IMG/VR virus record: IMGVR_UViG_3300019093_000748
Span: 1 to 24,757 of that record
Source: a virus
Strand: one strand, 5' to 3'
DNA: 24,757 nucleotides
Positions within the stretch are counted from its first letter, which is position 1. Each line of letters starts with the position of its first letter. The notes under the pieces are model-generated. The model saw nothing but the letters and a program-made list of their open reading frames with translations, searched no databases and had not been told where the DNA came from. Both the position numbers and the translations under genes were made by a program. Below, piece after piece: positions 12,228 to 24,541 of this stretch.

Positions 12228-13934
12228 ATGATATTCGGATACTTTATGATGTTGGTTGCAGTGTCCATTTCTGCGATCGCCGCTTGGTACAGCGTGGAAG
12301 GCCTTACTGCGATCTTTGCCGCGGCTGTGGTGCCAGTGATCATCATGGGCGGTGCCCTTGAAGCTGGTAAGATTCTGGCCACAGTTTGGCTACACAACAA
12401 CTGGCCACGTGTGTCATGGGCCTACAAATCCTATCTAATACCTGCCATCATATTCCTTATGGTATTGACTAGCATGGGTATCTTTGGCTTCCTATCAAAG
12501 GCACACTCGGATCAAAGTCTGGTCACTGGAGATGCCACCAGCAAGGTTGCCATCTATGATGAAAAGATTCGAACAGCCAAAGACAACATAGAAGCCAACC
12601 GCCGGGCCCTTCGACAGATGGATGAGGCAGTAGATCAAGTCATGGGCCGAAGTGCGGATGAAAAAGGTGCTGACAAAGCAGTAGCCATTCGCAGGGGCCA
12701 GTCCAAAGAACGTGTGCGACTTCAAACTGAAATCACTGCTGAACAAACAAAGATTGCGGCTCTCAACGAAGAACGTGCGCCATTTGCGGCCGAGGTACGC
12801 AAGGTCGAAGCCGATGTGGGTCCAATCAAATACATTGCGGCCTTGATCTATGGTGACAATCCAGATACCACTGTGCTAGAACGTGCGGTACGTTGGGTCA
12901 TCATGCTGATTGTTGTGGTGTTTGATCCCTTGGCTCTGTGCCTGATTCTGGCCAGCAACAAGCAGTTGGAATGGGTCCGTGAAGATCGGGAAAAACTGCT
13001 GGATCCCGAACCGGCCTATGAACCTGATGATGGTCCGTTGACTGATCAACAGGTGGCAGCCATACAAGAAACTGCGGCCGAACAACTGCCCACAGGTCAA
13101 GTTGTTGTAACCAGTCAACTGTTTGAACCAGTCCAAGAGCCAGATGAACTGGAACAAAGCACAAAAACTATTGTTGTCAGTGATGCGACCGAAGAAGAGG
13201 AAGGCCATGATCCGCATCAAGAGGATTGGATTCAAAAGTATGATACCGATGTTGAAGAGACGCCGGTTGCTGAACCGGTTACCATGCTAGAACAACATCC
13301 ATATCTGAATCAGCCATTTGTACATTTCACAGACCTAAAACCCCTGGTGGCAAGAATTGAAGAACCCATACCGGAATCTGAATCTGAACCTGTGGTTGAT
13401 AATACCTTGGATCTTGCGGCTGAAGCCATTGAAGAACTCAACTCCGAAGTTGCTAGACTGGCAACAGAAAAGGCTGCCATTCAGCAACAACTGGCCGAAA
13501 CACAGGAAAAGTTAGCTCAAACTGCTCGAGAAAAACTGATCGAACATGATCGTGCCGTTAACCTAAGCACACAACTCATGGATCTACTGCATCCACCTAG
13601 AGTTGCACCTGTGCTGGATCTGGCACCCATTGCAGACAACGTGGCACCATTGAAGTCGGCTCCCAAGAGCAGTTTTGGAACAGAGTTTCCAGAAAACTCC
13701 AGCAAGGGTGATTTGTTTTTGAGAACCGACTACTTGCCAACTCGCTTGTTCAAATTCAATGGGGACTCTTGGATCTCATTAGAAAAGACCAACACCGACA
13801 GTTATACCTATGATGATGCTTACATCAACTATTTGATCAGCAAGATTGACACTGGCGAATATGACAGTGAAGATCTCAGTGATGCTGAACGTGAACAAAT
13901 TCGTGATTTTCTAGAAAAACGTGATGCAGGATAA
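12228..13934 (+). CDS. Large membrane protein with coiled coil and C-terminal virion-like segment (568 aa)
   Basis: Hydrophobic segments at about 4-23, 26-48 and 69-90 are followed by a charged helical region (residues 105-195, ALRQMDEAVDQVMGRSADEK), a fourth membrane segment at 222-243 (VRWVIMLIVVVFDPLALCLI) and a long acidic cytoplasmic tail. A second coiled coil lies at about 400-455 (AIEELNSEVARLATEKAAIQ). Residues about 480-525 (GTEFPENSSKGDLFLRTDYL ... LFKFNGDSWISLEK) look like the short DGD.WI unit common on phage proteins. I do not recognise a function; large proteins of this membrane/coiled-coil design occur in T4-like marine phages. Its stop overlaps the next gene. No ribosome site is visible, so it may be leaderless. 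Confidence 0.85.
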   Translation: MIFGYFMMLVAVSISAIAAWYSVEGLTAIFAAAVVPVIIMGGALEAGKILATVWLHNNWPRVSWAYKSYLIPAIIFLMVLTSMGIFGFLSKAHSDQSLVTGDATSKVAIYDEKIRTAKDNIEANRRALRQMDEAVDQVMGRSADEKGADKAVAIRRGQSKERVRLQTEITAEQTKIAALNEERAPFAAEVRKVEADVGPIKYIAALIYGDNPDTTVLERAVRWVIMLIVVVFDPLALCLILASNKQLEWVREDREKLLDPEPAYEPDDGPLTDQQVAAIQETAAEQLPTGQVVVTSQLFEPVQEPDELEQSTKTIVVSDATEEEEGHDPHQEDWIQKYDTDVEETPVAEPVTMLEQHPYLNQPFVHFTDLKPLVARIEEPIPESESEPVVDNTLDLAAEAIEELNSEVARLATEKAAIQQQLAETQEKLAQTAREKLIEHDRAVNLSTQLMDLLHPPRVAPVLDLAPIADNVAPLKSAPKSSFGTEFPENSSKGDLFLRTDYLPTRLFKFNGDSWISLEKTNTDSYTYDDAYINYLISKIDTGEYDSEDLSDAEREQIRDFLEKRDAG

Positions 13935-14302: not shown

Positions 14303-14548
14303 ATGAGAGACGAATACCGAAAAAAACCAATGGCACCAGGCAACCGAGTTGATGTGGTCAATGACCAAGTGGACAAGGCCCTACGCAAGTTCAAGAAAAA
14401 AGTTGCCGACAGCGGTCTGTTACAAGATCTTCGTGAACGCGAGTTCTATACCAAACCCACTACCCGACGCAAACAGCTCAAGAGTGCCGCCCGGCGCCGT
14501 TGGCAGAAAAAGCTGGAAGCACAACAGCTTCCCAAAAAGCTCTATTAA
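14303..14548 (+). CDS. rpsU: bS21-like small-subunit ribosomal protein
   Basis: The 81-residue sequence aligns by eye with bS21: KALRKFKKKVADSGLLQDLR, then EREFYTKPTTRRKQLKSAAR, RRWQKKL and the terminal LPKKLY. Cellular bS21 is about 70 residues, so there is an N-terminal extension of about 15 residues. bS21 is the ribosomal protein most often reported in phage genomes and sits near the anti-Shine-Dalgarno end of 16S rRNA. It may compete for host 30S subunits and bias initiation toward phage mRNAs. The LPKKLY tail is like betaproteobacterial bS21, suggesting the host. No ribosome site precedes the start. Confidence 0.92.
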   Translation: MRDEYRKKPMAPGNRVDVVNDQVDKALRKFKKKVADSGLLQDLREREFYTKPTTRRKQLKSAARRRWQKKLEAQQLPKKLY

Positions 14549-15683: not shown

Positions 15684-16136
15684 ATGACACAATTCAGTAT
15701 CAACACGTTTGACCTTCCCACACTTCACGCACACATTCATCGCCACGCAGTTGGTTTTGATCGTATGTTTGATGACCTAAATCGCACTTTTGCCAACACC
15801 AAAACCGATGGCAATTACCCTCCATACAACATCATCAAAGTTGACGAAAACAACTATGCCATTCAGGTGGCAGTTGCTGGCTTCAGCGATGACGAGCTGG
15901 ATGTTGAGTGCAAAGAAAACACTCTTACCATCAGTGGAGAGCGCAAGGTCAAGGATGAACAAGAGTACTTGCATCGTGGCATCAGTGCCCGTAACTTCAC
16001 TCGCAGTTTTACATTGGCAGATCATGTCAACGTCAAAGCCGCCACGGTGATCAATGGTATTCTTGCAATCAGTCTTGAGCACGTGGTTCCTGAGGAACAA
16101 AAAGCCAAAAAGATTGCTATTACTTACGCAAAGTAA
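15684..16136 (+). CDS. Hsp20 / alpha-crystallin small heat-shock protein
   Basis: The ATG at 15684 has TAGGAG about 7 bases upstream; the TTG at 15663 lies before this site and is rejected. The protein is 150 residues, IbpA-like: VGFDRMFDDLNRTF is the typical N-terminal motif, and the alpha-crystallin domain spans about 43-140 (YNIIKVDENNYAIQVAVAGF; LDVECKENTLTISGER; YLHRGISARNFTRSF; INGILAISLEHVVPEE). It ends KKIAITYAK. It would hold unfolded proteins during infection or virion assembly. Hsp20 genes are a known auxiliary gene of marine T4-like phages. Dual promoters suggest expression throughout infection. Confidence 0.97.
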   Translation: MTQFSINTFDLPTLHAHIHRHAVGFDRMFDDLNRTFANTKTDGNYPPYNIIKVDENNYAIQVAVAGFSDDELDVECKENTLTISGERKVKDEQEYLHRGISARNFTRSFTLADHVNVKAATVINGILAISLEHVVPEEQKAKKIAITYAK

Positions 16137-16192: not shown

Positions 16193-16501
16193 ATGCCAAC
16201 TGTAGAAACTATCGTACGTCCCAAAATTATACCCAAAACAGAGTTGGCTGAACCCAGCTTGTTCAATGTGATCTATGTCAACGACGACAAAACCACAATG
16301 GAATTTGTGGTCGAAAGTCTCAAGGCCATTTTTGATTACGATGAAGAATCGGCCGTGGCTCTGGCCAATCGTATACACGAAGAAGGTTCGGGCATAGTTG
16401 CTACCCTGCCGTACGAAATGGCTGAACAAAAAGGTATTGAAGCCACTTTGTTGGCACGTAACAACGGATTCCCGCTGTCGGTCAAATTGGAACAGGCATG
16501 A
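16193..16501 (+). CDS. clpS: ClpS-like N-end-rule adaptor for the ClpAP protease
   Basis: The 102-residue protein carries the ClpS core: FNVIYVNDDKTTMEFVVESL with Asn30-Asp31-Asp32, which hold the alpha-amino group of N-degron substrates, and IHEEGSGIVATLPYEMAEQK with His62, the other pocket residue. LLARNNGFPLSVKLEQA matches the end of the domain. The N-terminal 20 residues are the flexible extension that enters ClpA. A phage copy could redirect host ClpAP toward or away from N-end-rule substrates. No Shine-Dalgarno is clear. Its stop overlaps the next ATG (ATGA at 16498-16501). Confidence 0.93.
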   Translation: MPTVETIVRPKIIPKTELAEPSLFNVIYVNDDKTTMEFVVESLKAIFDYDEESAVALANRIHEEGSGIVATLPYEMAEQKGIEATLLARNNGFPLSVKLEQA

Positions 16502-16977: not shown

Positions 16978-16994
16978 TAGTGTACAATACACTA
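16960..16994 (+). promoter_or_regulatory. Consensus sigma70 promoter with an overlapping palindrome
   Basis: TTGACA (16960-16965), a 17-base spacer and TACAAT (16983-16988), all overlapping the end of the previous gene. TAGTGT (16978-16983) and ACACTA (16989-16994) form an inverted repeat around the -10, a plausible repressor site. The next ATG begins 5 bases after the -10, so the RNA would be leaderless. Confidence 0.72.
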
Positions 16995-17539
16995 TGGATG
17001 CGATGCTCGACTTAGAAACCCTTAGTACCAGACCCGAAAGTGTGATTCTCACTATTGGTGCTGTCAAATTTGACCCTTACTCAGACTTGATTGATATGGA
17101 TCACGGATTGTATTACCGTGTGAACGTGGACGAACAGTTGGCCATGGATCGCCATGTGCTTGACAGCACCATTGAATGGTGGGGCAATCAAGATGCCGAA
17201 GTGCGCGAAGAAGCCCTGGGCGAACAAGATCGTGTGAGCCTAGAAGATATGACACGTGGCTTAAATCGATTCTTAGTGGGTGTGGAAAACATCTGGTGTC
17301 AGGGTCCTGCGTTCGACATTGTTATCTTAGAAAACTTATATCGACAGCTGGTCAAACCCACCCCTTGGCAGTTTTGGCAAATTTCAGACAGTCGTACCCT
17401 GTTCAAGACACACGGTGATCCCAGGGACAAAAATCGAACTGCCGCACACAATGCCTTGATGGACTGTTATTATCAGGCCACAGCAGTGCAGGAAATTTAT
17501 CGTACCGTGGGCATCAAGAAACGTGAATGGAACAACTGA
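16994..17539 (+). CDS. DexA/Rv2179c-type 3'-5' exonuclease (DnaQ-like, DEDD)
   Basis: This is a 181-residue RNase-H-fold exonuclease. Exo I is DLETLSTRP (Asp6, Glu8), exo II is GPAFDIVIL (Asp108), and exo III is AAHNALMDC (His152 and Asp157, the DEDDh form). The layout matches T4 DexA and the related Rv2179c-like exonucleases, which degrade single-stranded DNA or RNA 3' ends. It may start at ATG 16994 or 17003; no Shine-Dalgarno is present, and the promoter -10 is 5 bases upstream, so the transcript is predicted leaderless. The stop overlaps the next ATG (TGATG). Confidence 0.93.
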   Translation: MDAMLDLETLSTRPESVILTIGAVKFDPYSDLIDMDHGLYYRVNVDEQLAMDRHVLDSTIEWWGNQDAEVREEALGEQDRVSLEDMTRGLNRFLVGVENIWCQGPAFDIVILENLYRQLVKPTPWQFWQISDSRTLFKTHGDPRDKNRTAAHNALMDCYYQATAVQEIYRTVGIKKREWNN

Positions 17540-17849: not shown

Positions 17850-18167
17850 ATGAAAAAATTCTTAGCCGCAGTATTATTTCTATCAATGTTGTCGGCTCGA
17901 GCCGATCTATCGGACAAAATTGTAGTGGTAAGATGTGGTTCAGAAAAAGATATAAAGGCCATCACAGGTGCCTACCATGAAAAACCCATAGTTATAGCCA
18001 CTCATAAAGATGATGGCATAGTAATAATTGTGTGGGCCAACAAACAAACACAAACCAGTACTTGGGTAGTTCATATACCCAGTACAGGTGAGTATTGTAC
18101 CCTGGCATCAGGAACAGAATTATTGATTATAGAACAGATGAAAAACAGTACAGTGCATTACCGTTAG
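17850..18167 (+). CDS. Small exported (periplasmic) protein with two cysteines (105 aa)
   Basis: A Sec signal peptide is clear: MKKFLAAVLFLSMLSARA, then D, with cleavage after ARA at about residue 18. The mature part is a small beta-rich domain with two cysteines (VVRCGSEKD and GEYCTLASGTE), which could form one disulfide. The TWVVHIP...CTLASG pattern resembles small periplasmic proteins of proteobacteria whose function I do not know. It is the first of a run of exported products that continues to 21398 and ends at its own terminator. It may be leaderless. Confidence 0.82.
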   Translation: MKKFLAAVLFLSMLSARADLSDKIVVVRCGSEKDIKAITGAYHEKPIVIATHKDDGIVIIVWANKQTQTSTWVVHIPSTGEYCTLASGTELLIIEQMKNSTVHYR

Positions 18168-18459: not shown

Positions 18460-20808
18460 ATGGGTAAGTCAATTACCAAATTTCTTACGAGCTTGGCCGT
18501 GGCCTTCTCGTCATTTGCCGCACACGCTGATTTTACAGATTTACAATTTGGTCAAGCACAAATAGCAGACAGTCAGTGGAATGTCAATGCTTGTATGAAT
18601 ACGACCACTTGTCAAATCTACAGTAAAAATCCAGGAACAGCTTACAAGATTCCATGGACCAATGGTCAATTATCATGGTCGACTGGAGATTATGTTCGAT
18701 TCGTGGCAACCGGTAATGTTACCAATCCATACAATGCCATTCAATATACATCTGCTGGTGTACAAAAAGCAGTAATGGGCACTGGGCATATTATCAATAT
18801 GGGTACAGACTATTTCTTCTTTGTGGGCAATGACAACGACACCGGACAGTTGTTTAGTATGACACAAGGCTTTGCCAATACAACTGGTTTGTCTTGGACC
18901 GGAACACGCAATCCAACAGTATCGGAAGTTAATGCATTGAGTGTGGGAGGTTCTACCACACCACTGGCACCAGGTCAAACTGCGGCACCGGCTGCACCCA
19001 CTACAAATCCCACAGCAGTCACCAGCAGTATCATTGCTACAGTGACTCCCACCAGTACAAACAGTCCAGTCGGCGAAGGTGCTGCCAAGGCAGTTGATGG
19101 AACAAGTTCGAGCAAGTATCTAAACTTTGACCGTGCCAACGCTGGCTTCACAATCACACTAAATGCTGGTAAAGTAATCAATGGTGTTAAGTTTACAACA
19201 GCTAACGACTTTGTACCAAGAGACCCTACCAAATTTACGTTGTATGGTAGTAATGATGGTCACACCTGGACAGAAATCACAGCTAACCAAAGTACAACAT
19301 TGGAAAATGTGAGTGGTCGTTATACACAAACTGGTATGATCACCATCAACAATACCAATCCTTATGTGTACTACTTTATCACATTTCCAAGCATCAAAGC
19401 CATTGATACCTATGGTTCAGTTGCTGGCTGTAGATCTGCGCTGGGAACATTGGCCTGTGACAGTATGCAAATTGGCGAAGTTACCTATTACTATGACAGC
19501 AACAATACTGCCACCAGTACCAGCACCCTGGTGGGCTCTATTGCCAATCCAGGCACAGCAGGCGCAACATCCAGTATGAATACTTCGCCCACTGTGGTCA
19601 GCACAGCCCCTGGCTCGGACATTGTGACAACAGCAAGCACTCCCGGCTCAACCACTTCTGCAACCACAGTCACTAGAGGCACAACTGCCACCGCTTCGGT
19701 CACAACCGACACTCGTGATCGTCAACCCAAGGTGCTGAACATCAACAGAAACATCACCGTCACGGACACAACCCCTGTGACTACCACGGTGGTTCAAACT
19801 ACTCCTGTAACAACCACAACTACAACAACTCCTGTGACTGTCACAACCTGGAGCGACGGTACCACAACTACCACCAATGGAAATCCTGTGGTGACTGTTA
19901 CTGTAACAGACAACGTGGTCACCACAGCCACCACAGCGGACGATATACAGGTCACCAGTACTGATAGATTGTATTCAACACGTATTGATCAGTTTGATCG
20001 TCTAGTCGAAGCCAACACCAGAGAAAATCTAGCATTGGCCAGCGACCCATTGAGTCGTCACAGAGTGCTTGACAGCGAAATCAAATTGATGGGTGCCAAT
20101 GTAAACGAACGCACTGTTTTTACTGTACAAGGATCTAACCAAAACAGTAGCGTACAAGATGGTTATAGTTTGACTTCCAACCGTTATGTGTTGGGCCTGG
20201 CACACAGACTCAGAACAGATCTATTGATTGGAGCACAGTACAGTCAATCTAGACTACAGTTGGGCGGCAATGCCAGCAGTGGCGTACTAGACAAAAATGC
20301 AATCAACCTGTATTCTTTATGGACCAAGAATGATTGGTTAGTAAAAGGAGACCTAGGATATGCACAGAATGACTACAATACCACCCATACACTTAATGAG
20401 TTGGGCTTGTCCAACAGTGCTCGTGCTTCGGGCAATGATGTCTGGGCCGCAGTAAGAGCCTACACTCCTGCTGTCAAAGGCGTCAGACTGTTTGCTGGTG
20501 CCAGACGTGAACACAACCGCAGAGACTATGCTGTAGACGCCGGTTCGGCCTTGTCTGCAGTTGACTATGCCGCAGTCAATGCAGTCAACAACATCACAGA
20601 AGCAGGTGTACGTTTGGATCACTATGTGAATGATAAAGTAAACATCTATGCTGAATATGCACACAATAATCGTCAAATCTCCACCAGCAAACTGGGTTTA
20701 AGTTATTTGTCCGGACCATACAGTTCGATTCAAATTGGTGCTACTCAACAACGTCAAAACGGACAGCAATTCAACGGCGCAGTTTTAGAGGTGAGACTAT
20801 TGTTCTAA
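18460..20808 (+). CDS. Autotransporter-like outer-membrane protein with discoidin-type domain and Thr-rich stalk (782 aa)
   Basis: A Sec signal peptide (residues 1-23, ending AHA before DFTDL) starts the protein. Residues 24-160 are unassigned and hold one Cys pair (NACMNTTTCQ). Residues about 191-347 look like an F5/8 type C (discoidin) carbohydrate-binding domain: AAKAVDGTSSSKYLNFDRAN, then FTLYGSNDGHTWTEI. Residues about 348-500 are a Thr/Val/Pro-rich stalk (TTTTTTTPVTVTTWSDG). From about 500 a helical linker (QFDRLVEANTREN) leads to a C-terminal region of about 275 residues with alternating strands (RYVLGLAHRL, LIGAQYSQSRLQL, NIYAEYAHNN) ending AVLEVRLLF. The terminal Phe and size match type V autotransporter beta-domains. 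It should sit in the host outer membrane, displaying the N-terminal domains. A strong ribosome site is present. Confidence 0.85.
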   Translation: MGKSITKFLTSLAVAFSSFAAHADFTDLQFGQAQIADSQWNVNACMNTTTCQIYSKNPGTAYKIPWTNGQLSWSTGDYVRFVATGNVTNPYNAIQYTSAGVQKAVMGTGHIINMGTDYFFFVGNDNDTGQLFSMTQGFANTTGLSWTGTRNPTVSEVNALSVGGSTTPLAPGQTAAPAAPTTNPTAVTSSIIATVTPTSTNSPVGEGAAKAVDGTSSSKYLNFDRANAGFTITLNAGKVINGVKFTTANDFVPRDPTKFTLYGSNDGHTWTEITANQSTTLENVSGRYTQTGMITINNTNPYVYYFITFPSIKAIDTYGSVAGCRSALGTLACDSMQIGEVTYYYDSNNTATSTSTLVGSIANPGTAGATSSMNTSPTVVSTAPGSDIVTTASTPGSTTSATTVTRGTTATASVTTDTRDRQPKVLNINRNITVTDTTPVTTTVVQTTPVTTTTTTTPVTVTTWSDGTTTTTNGNPVVTVTVTDNVVTTATTADDIQVTSTDRLYSTRIDQFDRLVEANTRENLALASDPLSRHRVLDSEIKLMGANVNERTVFTVQGSNQNSSVQDGYSLTSNRYVLGLAHRLRTDLLIGAQYSQSRLQLGGNASSGVLDKNAINLYSLWTKNDWLVKGDLGYAQNDYNTTHTLNELGLSNSARASGNDVWAAVRAYTPAVKGVRLFAGARREHNRRDYAVDAGSALSAVDYAAVNAVNNITEAGVRLDHYVNDKVNIYAEYAHNNRQISTSKLGLSYLSGPYSSIQIGATQQRQNGQQFNGAVLEVRLLF

Positions 20809-20809
20809 A

Positions 20810-21121
20810 ATGAAAACCATTAACAAAGTGTTGTTGGGCATGGCCGCGGTGACCACTGTGTTGGCACCGCTGGTTCCAAAGAACATCAACATCAATGTTA
20901 ATTTGGCAGCACAATCCTCTGGTGTCAAAAAAGAACGCCCTTATCAAACAGTAGAAACACAATGCGATCTACGTGGCACATCCATAACCGATTCGGGTAT
21001 GCAGGTATGTGAATACACTTGTCGTGGTGGCGACAAAGTGACCATTTACAAAACCTTTAGATCCAACGCCATGCACTGCTCACAAACCACCACTGAACGG
21101 GTAAAACAAACCAAAAGGTAG
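20810..21121 (+). CDS. Small exported protein with four cysteines (103 aa)
   Basis: The ATG is one base after the autotransporter stop, so the two are co-translated. MKTINKVLLGMAAVTTVLAP is a signal-peptide-like or anchor segment, followed by about 75 polar residues with Cys52, Cys67, Cys71 and Cys90 (CDLRG; CEYTC; HCSQTT), enough for two disulfides. Cleavage is unclear (possibly near residue 34, NLAAQ). Tight coupling suggests a partner, chaperone or ligand of the outer-membrane protein in the periplasm. No family recognised. Confidence 0.78.
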   Translation: MKTINKVLLGMAAVTTVLAPLVPKNININVNLAAQSSGVKKERPYQTVETQCDLRGTSITDSGMQVCEYTCRGGDKVTIYKTFRSNAMHCSQTTTERVKQTKR

Positions 21122-21194: not shown

Positions 21195-21398
21195 ATGAAA
21201 TCATTTATTGCAACCATTGTCGCCCTGTTGGCTATCTCTGCTTCGGCTGCCGATGTAGCCAAACCTGCTGTGACCGCAACAGCACCTGCCGCACCGGTCG
21301 TGGCCAAGGAGGAGGCTAAAAAGCCCACTACTAAAAGTTCCGCTAAAAAGGACACAAAAGCATCTACTCCAGCAACTGCACCGGCAGCCAGCAAGTGA
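21195..21398 (+). CDS. Secreted Lys/Ala/Pro/Thr-rich small protein (67 aa)
   Basis: MKSFIATIVALLAISASAAD is a textbook signal peptide with cleavage after about residue 18 or 19. The mature 48 residues are low-complexity: AKPAVTATAPAAPVVAKEEA, then KKPTTKSSAKKDTKAS. Such peptides in bacteria often lie along peptidoglycan or bind anionic surfaces. It has its own AAAGGAAA site and hairpin leader. The frame +1 to it, beginning just at its stop codon, is a conserved-looking ORF (21394-21582), so fusion by frameshifting cannot be excluded. Confidence 0.78.
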   Translation: MKSFIATIVALLAISASAADVAKPAVTATAPAAPVVAKEEAKKPTTKSSAKKDTKASTPATAPAASK

Positions 21399-22683: not shown

Positions 22684-23400
22684 ATGATGAGATTTACACT
22701 ATTATTTCTGCTGGCCTTGCCTGTGCAAGCAGAAATGTTGGCCAAGGCCTGGTTAGTTGCTGATGCCAATGGTGTCATTATAGAACAGCACAACAGCACA
22801 GACATTCAGCCCATTGCATCGATTACCAAACTCATGACAGCCATGGTTGTGCTAGACAGCAATCCCAACCTCAATGAACGTGTCAAAAAGTTTAGGGGTT
22901 TAACTGTAACCAAACAACAACTGTTGGATCTTGCCATAGTACACAGCGACAACCGTGCCGCAGATCAACTGTGCCGTACATATCGGCTGGGATATCGAGC
23001 CTGCGTTGCAGAAATGAATCACAAAGCTGAAATATTGGGAATGACCAACACACAGTACTACGACAGCACAGGGCTGGATAATCGCAACACCAGCAATGCT
23101 GTGGACTTGCTCAAGTTGTTGCAGGCCGCTGAACGCTATCCCGAAATAGTCAGCGCCAGCAGACAAACAGTGGTCAATCTACAAAAGAAACGTCATCGCT
23201 GGGCATTTACCAACACCAATCCACTAGTTGCCAGATACAATGTTGTTGTCAGCAAAACCGGTTATGTTCGTGCCAGCGGTGGCTGCATGGTAATGAGTGT
23301 GGTGCAAGACGGCGTCAAGCGATTTTTTGTTGTGCTGAACAGCCGTACCACACGTACCAGAGTACATGACATGGAATCACTTATCTTGGACAAGAACTAA
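22684..23400 (+). CDS. Exported serine-type D-Ala-D-Ala carboxypeptidase/endopeptidase (peptidase S11, PBP7-like)
   Basis: The 238-residue enzyme has a signal peptide (MMRFTLLFLLALPVQA, cleaved near residue 16) and the full penicillin-binding-protein triad: SITK (Ser46, Lys49), SDN (88-90) and KTG (191-193, in VVSKTGYVRASGG). It has only the catalytic domain and lacks the C-terminal domain and membrane anchor of PBP5/6, so it resembles PBP7/PbpG, which cuts D-Ala-mDAP crosslinks. It would act in the periplasm on host peptidoglycan, either in remodelling or as a lysis aid. ATG 22687 is an alternative start. Its 3' end overlaps the minus-strand gene by 20 bases. Confidence 0.95.
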   Translation: MMRFTLLFLLALPVQAEMLAKAWLVADANGVIIEQHNSTDIQPIASITKLMTAMVVLDSNPNLNERVKKFRGLTVTKQQLLDLAIVHSDNRAADQLCRTYRLGYRACVAEMNHKAEILGMTNTQYYDSTGLDNRNTSNAVDLLKLLQAAERYPEIVSASRQTVVNLQKKRHRWAFTNTNPLVARYNVVVSKTGYVRASGGCMVMSVVQDGVKRFFVVLNSRTTRTRVHDMESLILDKN

Positions 23401-24541
23401 GCAAAGGCCATACTCGTTCTAGGGTACGATAATTCTTTTCCGCTGACACGTAGTTTAACAATTCAGGATTGTTACGTGCAATCAACTGTTTGCTTACAGC
23501 ACTATCCATTATTTGACTCACAGCCACATCAAAGGGCAGTTGAAGCATCAATTTGAAAATTTCCAAATCACGCAAGGGTGTCCAGGTCAGGGTATTGCCC
23601 AAATGCCAGTGCTGATAGTCGTTGATGTTCTCATTGCACAGTTGACGGAACAATATGTCTCTATTGTCGACCAGTTGTTGAACTTTTTTGTCGGCCAACT
23701 GACCTTGGAATATGGCCATGTTCTCTGCTTTTGAAAAGTATCGGTGTTGCATACAAGGCCCGTACACGTCTAATTGTTCAGGTATGTTGGTTCCGTAATG
23801 CATCAGATACATGTTGGCCAACGCCGGACTTCTAAGCATATATTCATCACCGGGGGTACCAGTCATCAACACACAGGGTTCAAGCCAATGATGTATCTGA
23901 TTATAGGCCCAGCTCCGTCTAATGTCATCTTTGTTACGAGACCAAAACGCATCAAACTCAAACACTTCGCCCGATACCAACTCAAACTGATCAGTATGAC
24001 GACAAAGAAAACTGTAGACCAACATGGAATCAACGCCACCAGACAAAAACACTTTCAGGGGCTGTTGATTGTTGCGTAGGAAGTTAGACACCGTGTGGTC
24101 AATGACGTTATAAAGATCGTTGATGACTTTATCCGCAGATCCGACATCGGATGGTACAGAACCAATTTGATCTAGTGCTTGTTCTGTTATCTGTAACTGT
24201 TGATCCACTGTGATTTCTTTGTTGGACCATATGGTCCTATCTGTGATTGTTTCTGTTAAATTGTCTATGCAGTGATCATTGACACAAATAGGAAAACTTC
24301 TATATCGGCTGGTTTTTAGTGTGATGGTTCCGTGTTCGTGATCAAACACCATGACACAAAAATTGCCTGGTTGTTGGTCAATGCGATCCAACTGTGTAGC
24401 CAAAGCAAAATCGTTGGCATACCCTTTGTACAAATAGTTGCTCTGGTGGTGCCACCCGCTGTCGTAACTTACCACAAGATTCTGAAACTTCAATGAATTG
24501 ACAAAGCGTGAGTCTGGTTTGTTTGATACGGAAAAGAACAT
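23381..24541 (-). CDS. Asparagine-synthetase-like protein with degenerate glutaminase domain (386 aa)
   Basis: Residues 165-175 (VFLSGGVDSML) are the PP-loop SGGxDS of AsnB-type ATP pyrophosphatases, followed by HTDQFELVSGEVFEFDAFWS and a GTPGDEYML segment. Residues 1-90 have the shape of the class II amidotransferase domain (NFCVMVFDHEHGTITLKTSR, YRSFPI) but the chain begins Met-Phe-Phe, with no Cys at position 2, so glutamine hydrolysis is unlikely, as in beta-lactam synthetase-like members. It probably makes an amide or adenylated intermediate using ammonia or another amine; the substrate is unknown. The start overlaps the previous minus-strand stop (TAATG), and the 3' end overlaps the carboxypeptidase gene. 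Confidence 0.82.
   Translation of the reverse strand: MFFSVSNKPDSRFVNSLKFQNLVVSYDSGWHHQSNYLYKGYANDFALATQLDRIDQQPGNFCVMVFDHEHGTITLKTSRYRSFPICVNDHCIDNLTETITDRTIWSNKEITVDQQLQITEQALDQIGSVPSDVGSADKVINDLYNVIDHTVSNFLRNNQQPLKVFLSGGVDSMLVYSFLCRHTDQFELVSGEVFEFDAFWSRNKDDIRRSWAYNQIHHWLEPCVLMTGTPGDEYMLRSPALANMYLMHYGTNIPEQLDVYGPCMQHRYFSKAENMAIFQGQLADKKVQQLVDNRDILFRQLCNENINDYQHWHLGNTLTWTPLRDLEIFKLMLQLPFDVAVSQIMDSAVSKQLIARNNPELLNYVSAEKNYRTLERVWPLLSSCPR

Follow-up and report, generated by a model that had tools for sequence, protein, structure and literature searches.

Predicted autotransporter-type surface protein gene in the genomic place of a phage curli operon

Phage curli and autotransporter barrels are both known, and some proteins of uncultured phages are labelled in databases as containing an autotransporter beta-domain. 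Solved structures of type Va barrels have a helix inside the pore. Curli operons of phages occur widely in the ocean, and the pelagiphage curli cluster has been described (PMC7029224; PMC9599517). Its purpose is debated between sibling capture, exclusion, uptake and lysis (PMC7029224; PMC9599517; PMC9004378). No description of a phage autotransporter of the kind reported here, or of a curli operon exchanged for one, was found in the open-access library searched, and the word autotransporter is absent from the paper on phages DSL-LC02 and LC03.

In the curli-type relatives of the phage studied here, the genes are arranged in the order CsgF, CsgG, curlin, FecR, a fusion of the N-domain (see below) with curlin, and CHASE2/cyclase, so that the N-domain gene is the fifth. 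The same operon order is found in the cultured phages HTVC008M, which infects Pelagibacter, and Melnitz. The fifth gene of HTVC008M (L184:10546-11868; KC465899.1, AGE60352.1) is annotated as hypothetical; it encodes PA14 and curlin repeats (E 2.7e-6 and 5.2e-8, over the Pfam cut-offs), and its product is probably an adhesin-bearing curlin in a cultured phage. In one curli-type record, ClpS and the curli operon are separated by a phage heme oxygenase gene (L004:3798-4343; PF01126, E 2e-22).

The window, meaning the whole stretch of DNA analysed, comprises 24,757 nucleotides of a viral record (IMGVR_UViG_3300019093_000748). The preliminary description had proposed that it encodes a 782-residue protein with a signal peptide, a discoidin-like domain, a long Thr-rich stalk and a C-terminal beta-domain ending in Phe. 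The open reading frame has exactly the boundaries given there, begins with ATG and contains no internal stop, and the four parts were recovered, the signal peptide as a putative one (Table 1). By eye the N-terminus resembles a Sec signal peptide (MGKSITKFLTSLAVAFSSFAAHA followed by DF), and a crude scorer accepted 67 of 71 family members and none of 355 internal control segments. The discoidin-like domain matches PF00754 (F5_F8_type_C, E 1.1e-8, aa 199-285) over the curated cut-off, and its predicted fold is a discoidin beta-sandwich whose Foldseek matches are CBM32 carbohydrate-binding modules. Glycan binding by this domain is inferred from the predicted fold alone, and the ligand is unknown; some F5/8C domains bind proteins or lipids. 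In the stalk, Thr makes up 36% of residues, against 11% elsewhere in the protein. The complete protein had no match in PHROGs, its tail families included, and none in NCBIfam.

Table 1. Features of the window, with their positions and the basis of each assignment.
Feature	Position	Strand	Basis
Autotransporter-like surface protein, 782 aa (N-domain, F5/8C, stalk, barrel)	18460..20808	+	ORF; Pfam PF03797, PF00754
Putative signal peptide, aa 1-23 (AHA before DF)	18460..18528	+	Sequence; crude scorer with internal-segment control
Phage-specific N-domain, aa 24-176	18529..18987	+	Alignment; 80 viral loci; AF2
Discoidin/F5-8C (CBM32-like) domain, aa 190-347	19027..19500	+	Pfam; Foldseek matches to CBM32 modules
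Thr-rich stalk, aa 348-500	19501..19959	+	Motif TTPVTVTTWSDGTT, common to cyanophage barrel proteins
Helix, aa 511-525, predicted to plug or precede pore	19990..20034	+	AF2 model
Predicted 12-strand beta-barrel translocator, aa 551-782, C-terminal Phe	20110..20805	+	AF2; NalP match
568-aa membrane protein	12228..13934	+	Synteny marker, common to curli-type phages and 367-kb relative
81-aa protein	14303..14548	+	Synteny marker
Hsp20	15684..16136	+	Synteny marker, 68 related loci
ClpS	16193..16501	+	Synteny marker, 68 related loci
Exonuclease	16994..17539	+	Synteny marker, 25 loci
Exported D-Ala-D-Ala carboxypeptidase-like protein	22684..23400	+	Right-hand synteny marker, 18 loci

Between the signal peptide and the discoidin-like domain lies a distinct conserved domain, the N-domain, which was absent from the preliminary description. 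Its AlphaFold model is mostly of pLDDT 80-94, and a sequence search against solved structures gave no convincing match. The fold is still unnamed because nearly all of the model's top fold matches fall on the F5/8C part.

The C-terminal region matches PF03797 (Autotransporter, E 3.7e-9, aa 557-766) over the curated cut-off. An AlphaFold model of aa 495-782, built from a 25-sequence alignment, predicts a helix followed by 12 strands (pLDDT 82, pTM 0.78); the absence of a barrel would have refuted the preliminary description, and this is not what the model shows. The eleven top fold matches in the PDB are autotransporter translocators without exception, with NalP first (TM 0.79/0.81) and EstA, AaaA, Hbp, EspP, AIDA-I and BrkA also present, while a sequence search against solved structures gave a top match only to EstA (E 0.029). 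The last strand is amphipathic. A monomeric 12-strand C-terminal barrel with a preceding helix, the criterion for type Va, is fulfilled on the AlphaFold model, the NalP match and PF03797. The type V plan that had been suggested for this protein draws support from the Pfam match, the modelled helix and strands resembling those of NalP, EstA and AaaA, the signal peptide and the terminal Phe, and by an independent logic from relatives in which the same passenger domain is paired with a CsgG exporter. That the window gene encodes a phage version of a classical (type Va) surface protein is strongly supported by these predictions, with surface exposure itself inferred.

A protein search of IMG/VR with the window protein recovered 15 loci sharing the N-terminus and often differing at the C-terminus. 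The homologue search in viral databases envisaged at the outset was extended with a profile of the N-domain, which found 80 viral loci; most of these relatives carry curlin repeats and are encoded in phage curli operons. Neither the N-domain profile nor the barrel profile found a relative in 84,980 prokaryote genomes. Among 82 N-domain proteins, 76 match the family's curlin-like C-terminal profile, four end in a barrel (the window protein, L002, L003 and L007, all with a terminal Phe) and two are cut by contig ends. Pfam recognises Curlin_rpt in 34 of 67 family proteins and F5_F8_type_C in 24 of 67. The middle domain of L008 is PA14-like (PF07691, E 6e-4, under the cut-off), and Pfam found no PA14 in that of L009, L114 or L100. 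Two of the barrel types are distant members: L003 has a very divergent N-domain, and L007 a barrel of only 18-20% identity.

The exporter gene CsgG follows the two C-terminal types closely, being present in 76 of 79 non-barrel records and in none of the four barrel-type records. In a first panel it occurred in 30 of 33 N-domain records, the three exceptions being barrel types; in a second it occurred in 46 of 50, the exceptions being the barrel-type L003, a 5.6 kb contig that is uninformative, and three non-barrel contigs that end no more than 0.3 kb upstream of the N-domain gene. No CsgG match was obtained in the window or in a 367-kb barrel-type relative (G001). CsgF, FecR and CHASE2 were each present in 7/7 curli-type and 0/3 barrel-type members of a ten-record panel that included the 367-kb record. 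Curlin repeats (PF07012) were not found in barrel-type records, the window and the 367-kb relative included, and the window protein did not match the family's curlin C-terminal profile. Conversely, no such barrel was found in 13 curli-type records. A 323-aa lipoprotein of the 367-kb record, considered as a hidden CsgG, was ruled out by Pfam.

The membrane protein, 81-aa protein, Hsp20, ClpS, exonuclease and downstream carboxypeptidase genes of the window are shared with curli-type phages; in L004 the carboxypeptidase gene follows the cyclase gene. The place of the operon is therefore covered on both sides in the window, and the barrel gene occupies it, a circumstance that the preliminary description had not noted. 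In the 367-kb record, where no curli genes were found, the membrane protein (61%), Hsp20 and ClpS lie ~14-22 kb upstream of the barrel gene. The window covers only part of its genome, so a CsgG gene could still lie outside it; the case for absence is drawn from the local synteny and from the 367-kb relative, which is not certified as complete.

Other genes lie near these loci. A chaperone and protease set of DnaK, Hsp20, ClpS, an apparent ClpX and ClpP is found at G001:190500-219000 (L182/L183), where DnaK, ClpX and ClpP were assigned by eye. In the window, the autotransporter gene has small genes for predicted exported proteins on either side (17850-18167, 20810-21121 and 21195-21398), and that at 20810-21121 is Cys-rich and begins right after the autotransporter stop codon. 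A search of related loci for homologues of these three found none. On the minus strand, 23381-24541 encodes an asparagine-synthase/ATP-pyrophosphatase-like domain, recognised by eye (LSGGVDSM).

In the N-domain tree, the window protein groups with L002 and L007 (100/94) in a clade nested inside the curlin forms (99/100). Because of this nesting, and because the pelagiphages have a homologous operon of curlin type, the change most likely ran from curlin to barrel. Three of the four barrel types form this one clade, so the operon may have been lost only once, and the record counts do not amount to independent tests. For the window protein and L002, dN is 0.044 in the N-domain and 0.057 in the F5/8C domain, against 0.37 in the stalk and 0.61 in the barrel; dS is 0.73 in the N-domain and saturated in the F5/8C domain. 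The passenger is under strong purifying selection and was conserved while the barrel diverged.

Members of the barrel family are frequent among viral contigs (108 stretches). They include a cyanophage-like family (L020-L096 from IMG/VR, L017 and L018), mostly unannotated, with a signal peptide, a Thr-rich stalk with a TTPVTxTTxSDGTT-type motif and an autotransporter barrel. All 76 complete members end in KF[RK]F and thus, like the four barrel-type N-domain proteins, in Phe. The barrel genes of DSL-LC02 and LC03 adjoin endolysin or lysozyme genes, and no CsgG was found in the three cyanophage barrel records tested. The stalk-barrel unit may plausibly have come from this freshwater family, to which proteins of the Synechococcus phages DSL-LC02 and LC03 belong.

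The computed results (domains, barrel fold, family, loss of the operon, synteny, nested position of the barrel form and passenger conservation), together with established type V biology, allow a mechanism to be proposed. The signal peptide would route the protein into the Sec pathway of the host, whose BAM complex would then place the C-terminal 12-strand barrel in the outer membrane. The N-domain and CBM32-like domain would then be pushed outward on the Thr-rich stalk and remain anchored to the infected cell, where the displayed passenger would most likely attach that cell to surface glycans, to matrix or to neighbouring cells. Sister phages carry this passenger fused to curlin repeats, with the genes of a phage CsgG/CsgF exporter alongside; in the window phage, one self-secreting gene would replace the entire operon. 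Surface exposure, expression, glycan binding and any effect on infection have no experimental support and are inferred only, and the roles suggested in the preliminary description (superinfection exclusion, adhesion between cells, binding of glycans) are inferences too.

The best reading of the locus is a swap of operon for gene, with type V secretion in place of type VIII. Since, on this reading, a whole operon was exchanged for one gene that keeps the passenger, the selected trait is probably display of the putatively sugar-binding passenger on the infected cell, and the position of the barrel gene likewise suggests that these phages need this protein to be displayed at the cell surface. It is accordingly regarded as likely, with exposure, binding and effect on infection inferred, that a phage-specific self-secreting surface adhesin replaced the curli operon and that display was probably what selection retained. 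The broader proposition, that the export route of the adhesin is interchangeable (type VIII to V in one clade) and that phage curli serve to display a glycan-binding adhesin and are not amyloid, uptake or lysis pores in purpose, is favoured with moderate confidence.

Display could also serve superinfection exclusion, in which a lectin-like passenger covers or ties up glycans used by other phages without any sticking of cells. This has already been proposed for pelagiphage curli (PMC9599517), and both the CBM32-like fold of the passenger and the surface-display logic drawn from the distribution of CsgG, CsgF, FecR and CHASE2 suit it. The display step is common to adhesion and exclusion, the data do not separate the two, and there is no evidence for any particular masked receptor; exclusion is considered possible, if rather unlikely. 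A different emphasis is that curli genes and barrel alike act mainly as pores for lysis or uptake, with the passenger secondary. A role of the CsgG pore in lysis timing has been proposed for phage Melnitz (PMC9004378) and uptake through the pore has been mentioned for pelagimyophages (PMC7029224), but the barrel types lost CsgG and retained the passenger (dN ~0.05) while the barrel diverged, and a pore-associated helix is predicted in the window barrel as in known type Va structures. The loss of the pore in the swap therefore disfavours it as the selected product, at least in the barrel lineage, and this explanation is held to be very unlikely.

Two further explanations concern the nature of the gene itself, and both are given hardly any credence. 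The protein might be a virion structural component, a tail fibre or spike that merely resembles an autotransporter; a tail spike gene does lie 16 kb upstream in the same phage genome (501-2234), and cyanophage virions contain proteins with YadA-like domains (PMC9146016). Against a place in the virion stand the putative signal peptide that the crude scorer found in nearly all members, the full translocator barrel that is predicted and the lack of any PHROG tail family match; relatives are moreover encoded next to the CsgG exporter, and the homologues bear no sign of being virion proteins. The gene might instead be a bacterial autotransporter that was captured recently and has yet to acquire a settled role in the phage. 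Bacteria are indeed the main known source of the Pfam autotransporter domain, but the lack of N-domain and barrel relatives among the prokaryote genomes searched, the frequency of the barrel family in viral contigs and the strong purifying selection on the passenger all speak against such a capture.

If replacement of the operon by a surface adhesin is correct, the swap, in which pore and amyloid are gone and the passenger is kept through an unrelated secretion system, amounts to a direct test by evolution, with an outcome in favour of display. A further suggestion is that entire classes of bacterial secretion are modules which phages exchange. With a single gene, expression and testing in a laboratory strain become feasible, in contrast to the operon, which has six genes and belongs to phages whose hosts are hard to grow.

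Compared with the phage curli of HTVC008M, pelagipodophages and Melnitz, the window gene takes the place of the operon, and the fifth operon gene of related phages has the window's N-domain and often its F5/8C domain; unlike them, the window has no CsgG, CsgF, curlin, FecR or CHASE2 gene and has a predicted self-secreting barrel instead. Autotransporter-domain proteins of freshwater cyanophages (DSL-LC02, LC03 and their IMG/VR relatives), with which the "Autotransporter beta-domain containing protein" entries of uncultured Caudovirales are grouped, share the putative signal peptide, the stalk motif and a homologous barrel with the window protein, but have another N-terminal passenger, and their barrels are 21-25% identical to that of the window. 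Classical type Va autotransporters such as NalP, EstA, AaaA, EspP and AIDA-I likewise have a signal peptide (putative in the window protein), an N-terminal passenger, and a helix that precedes a C-terminal 12-strand barrel with a Phe end. The window protein differs from them in being encoded by a phage, in a passenger made up of a phage-specific domain and a CBM32-like domain with a Thr-rich stalk, and in that, among close relatives, the barrel has changed far more than this passenger.
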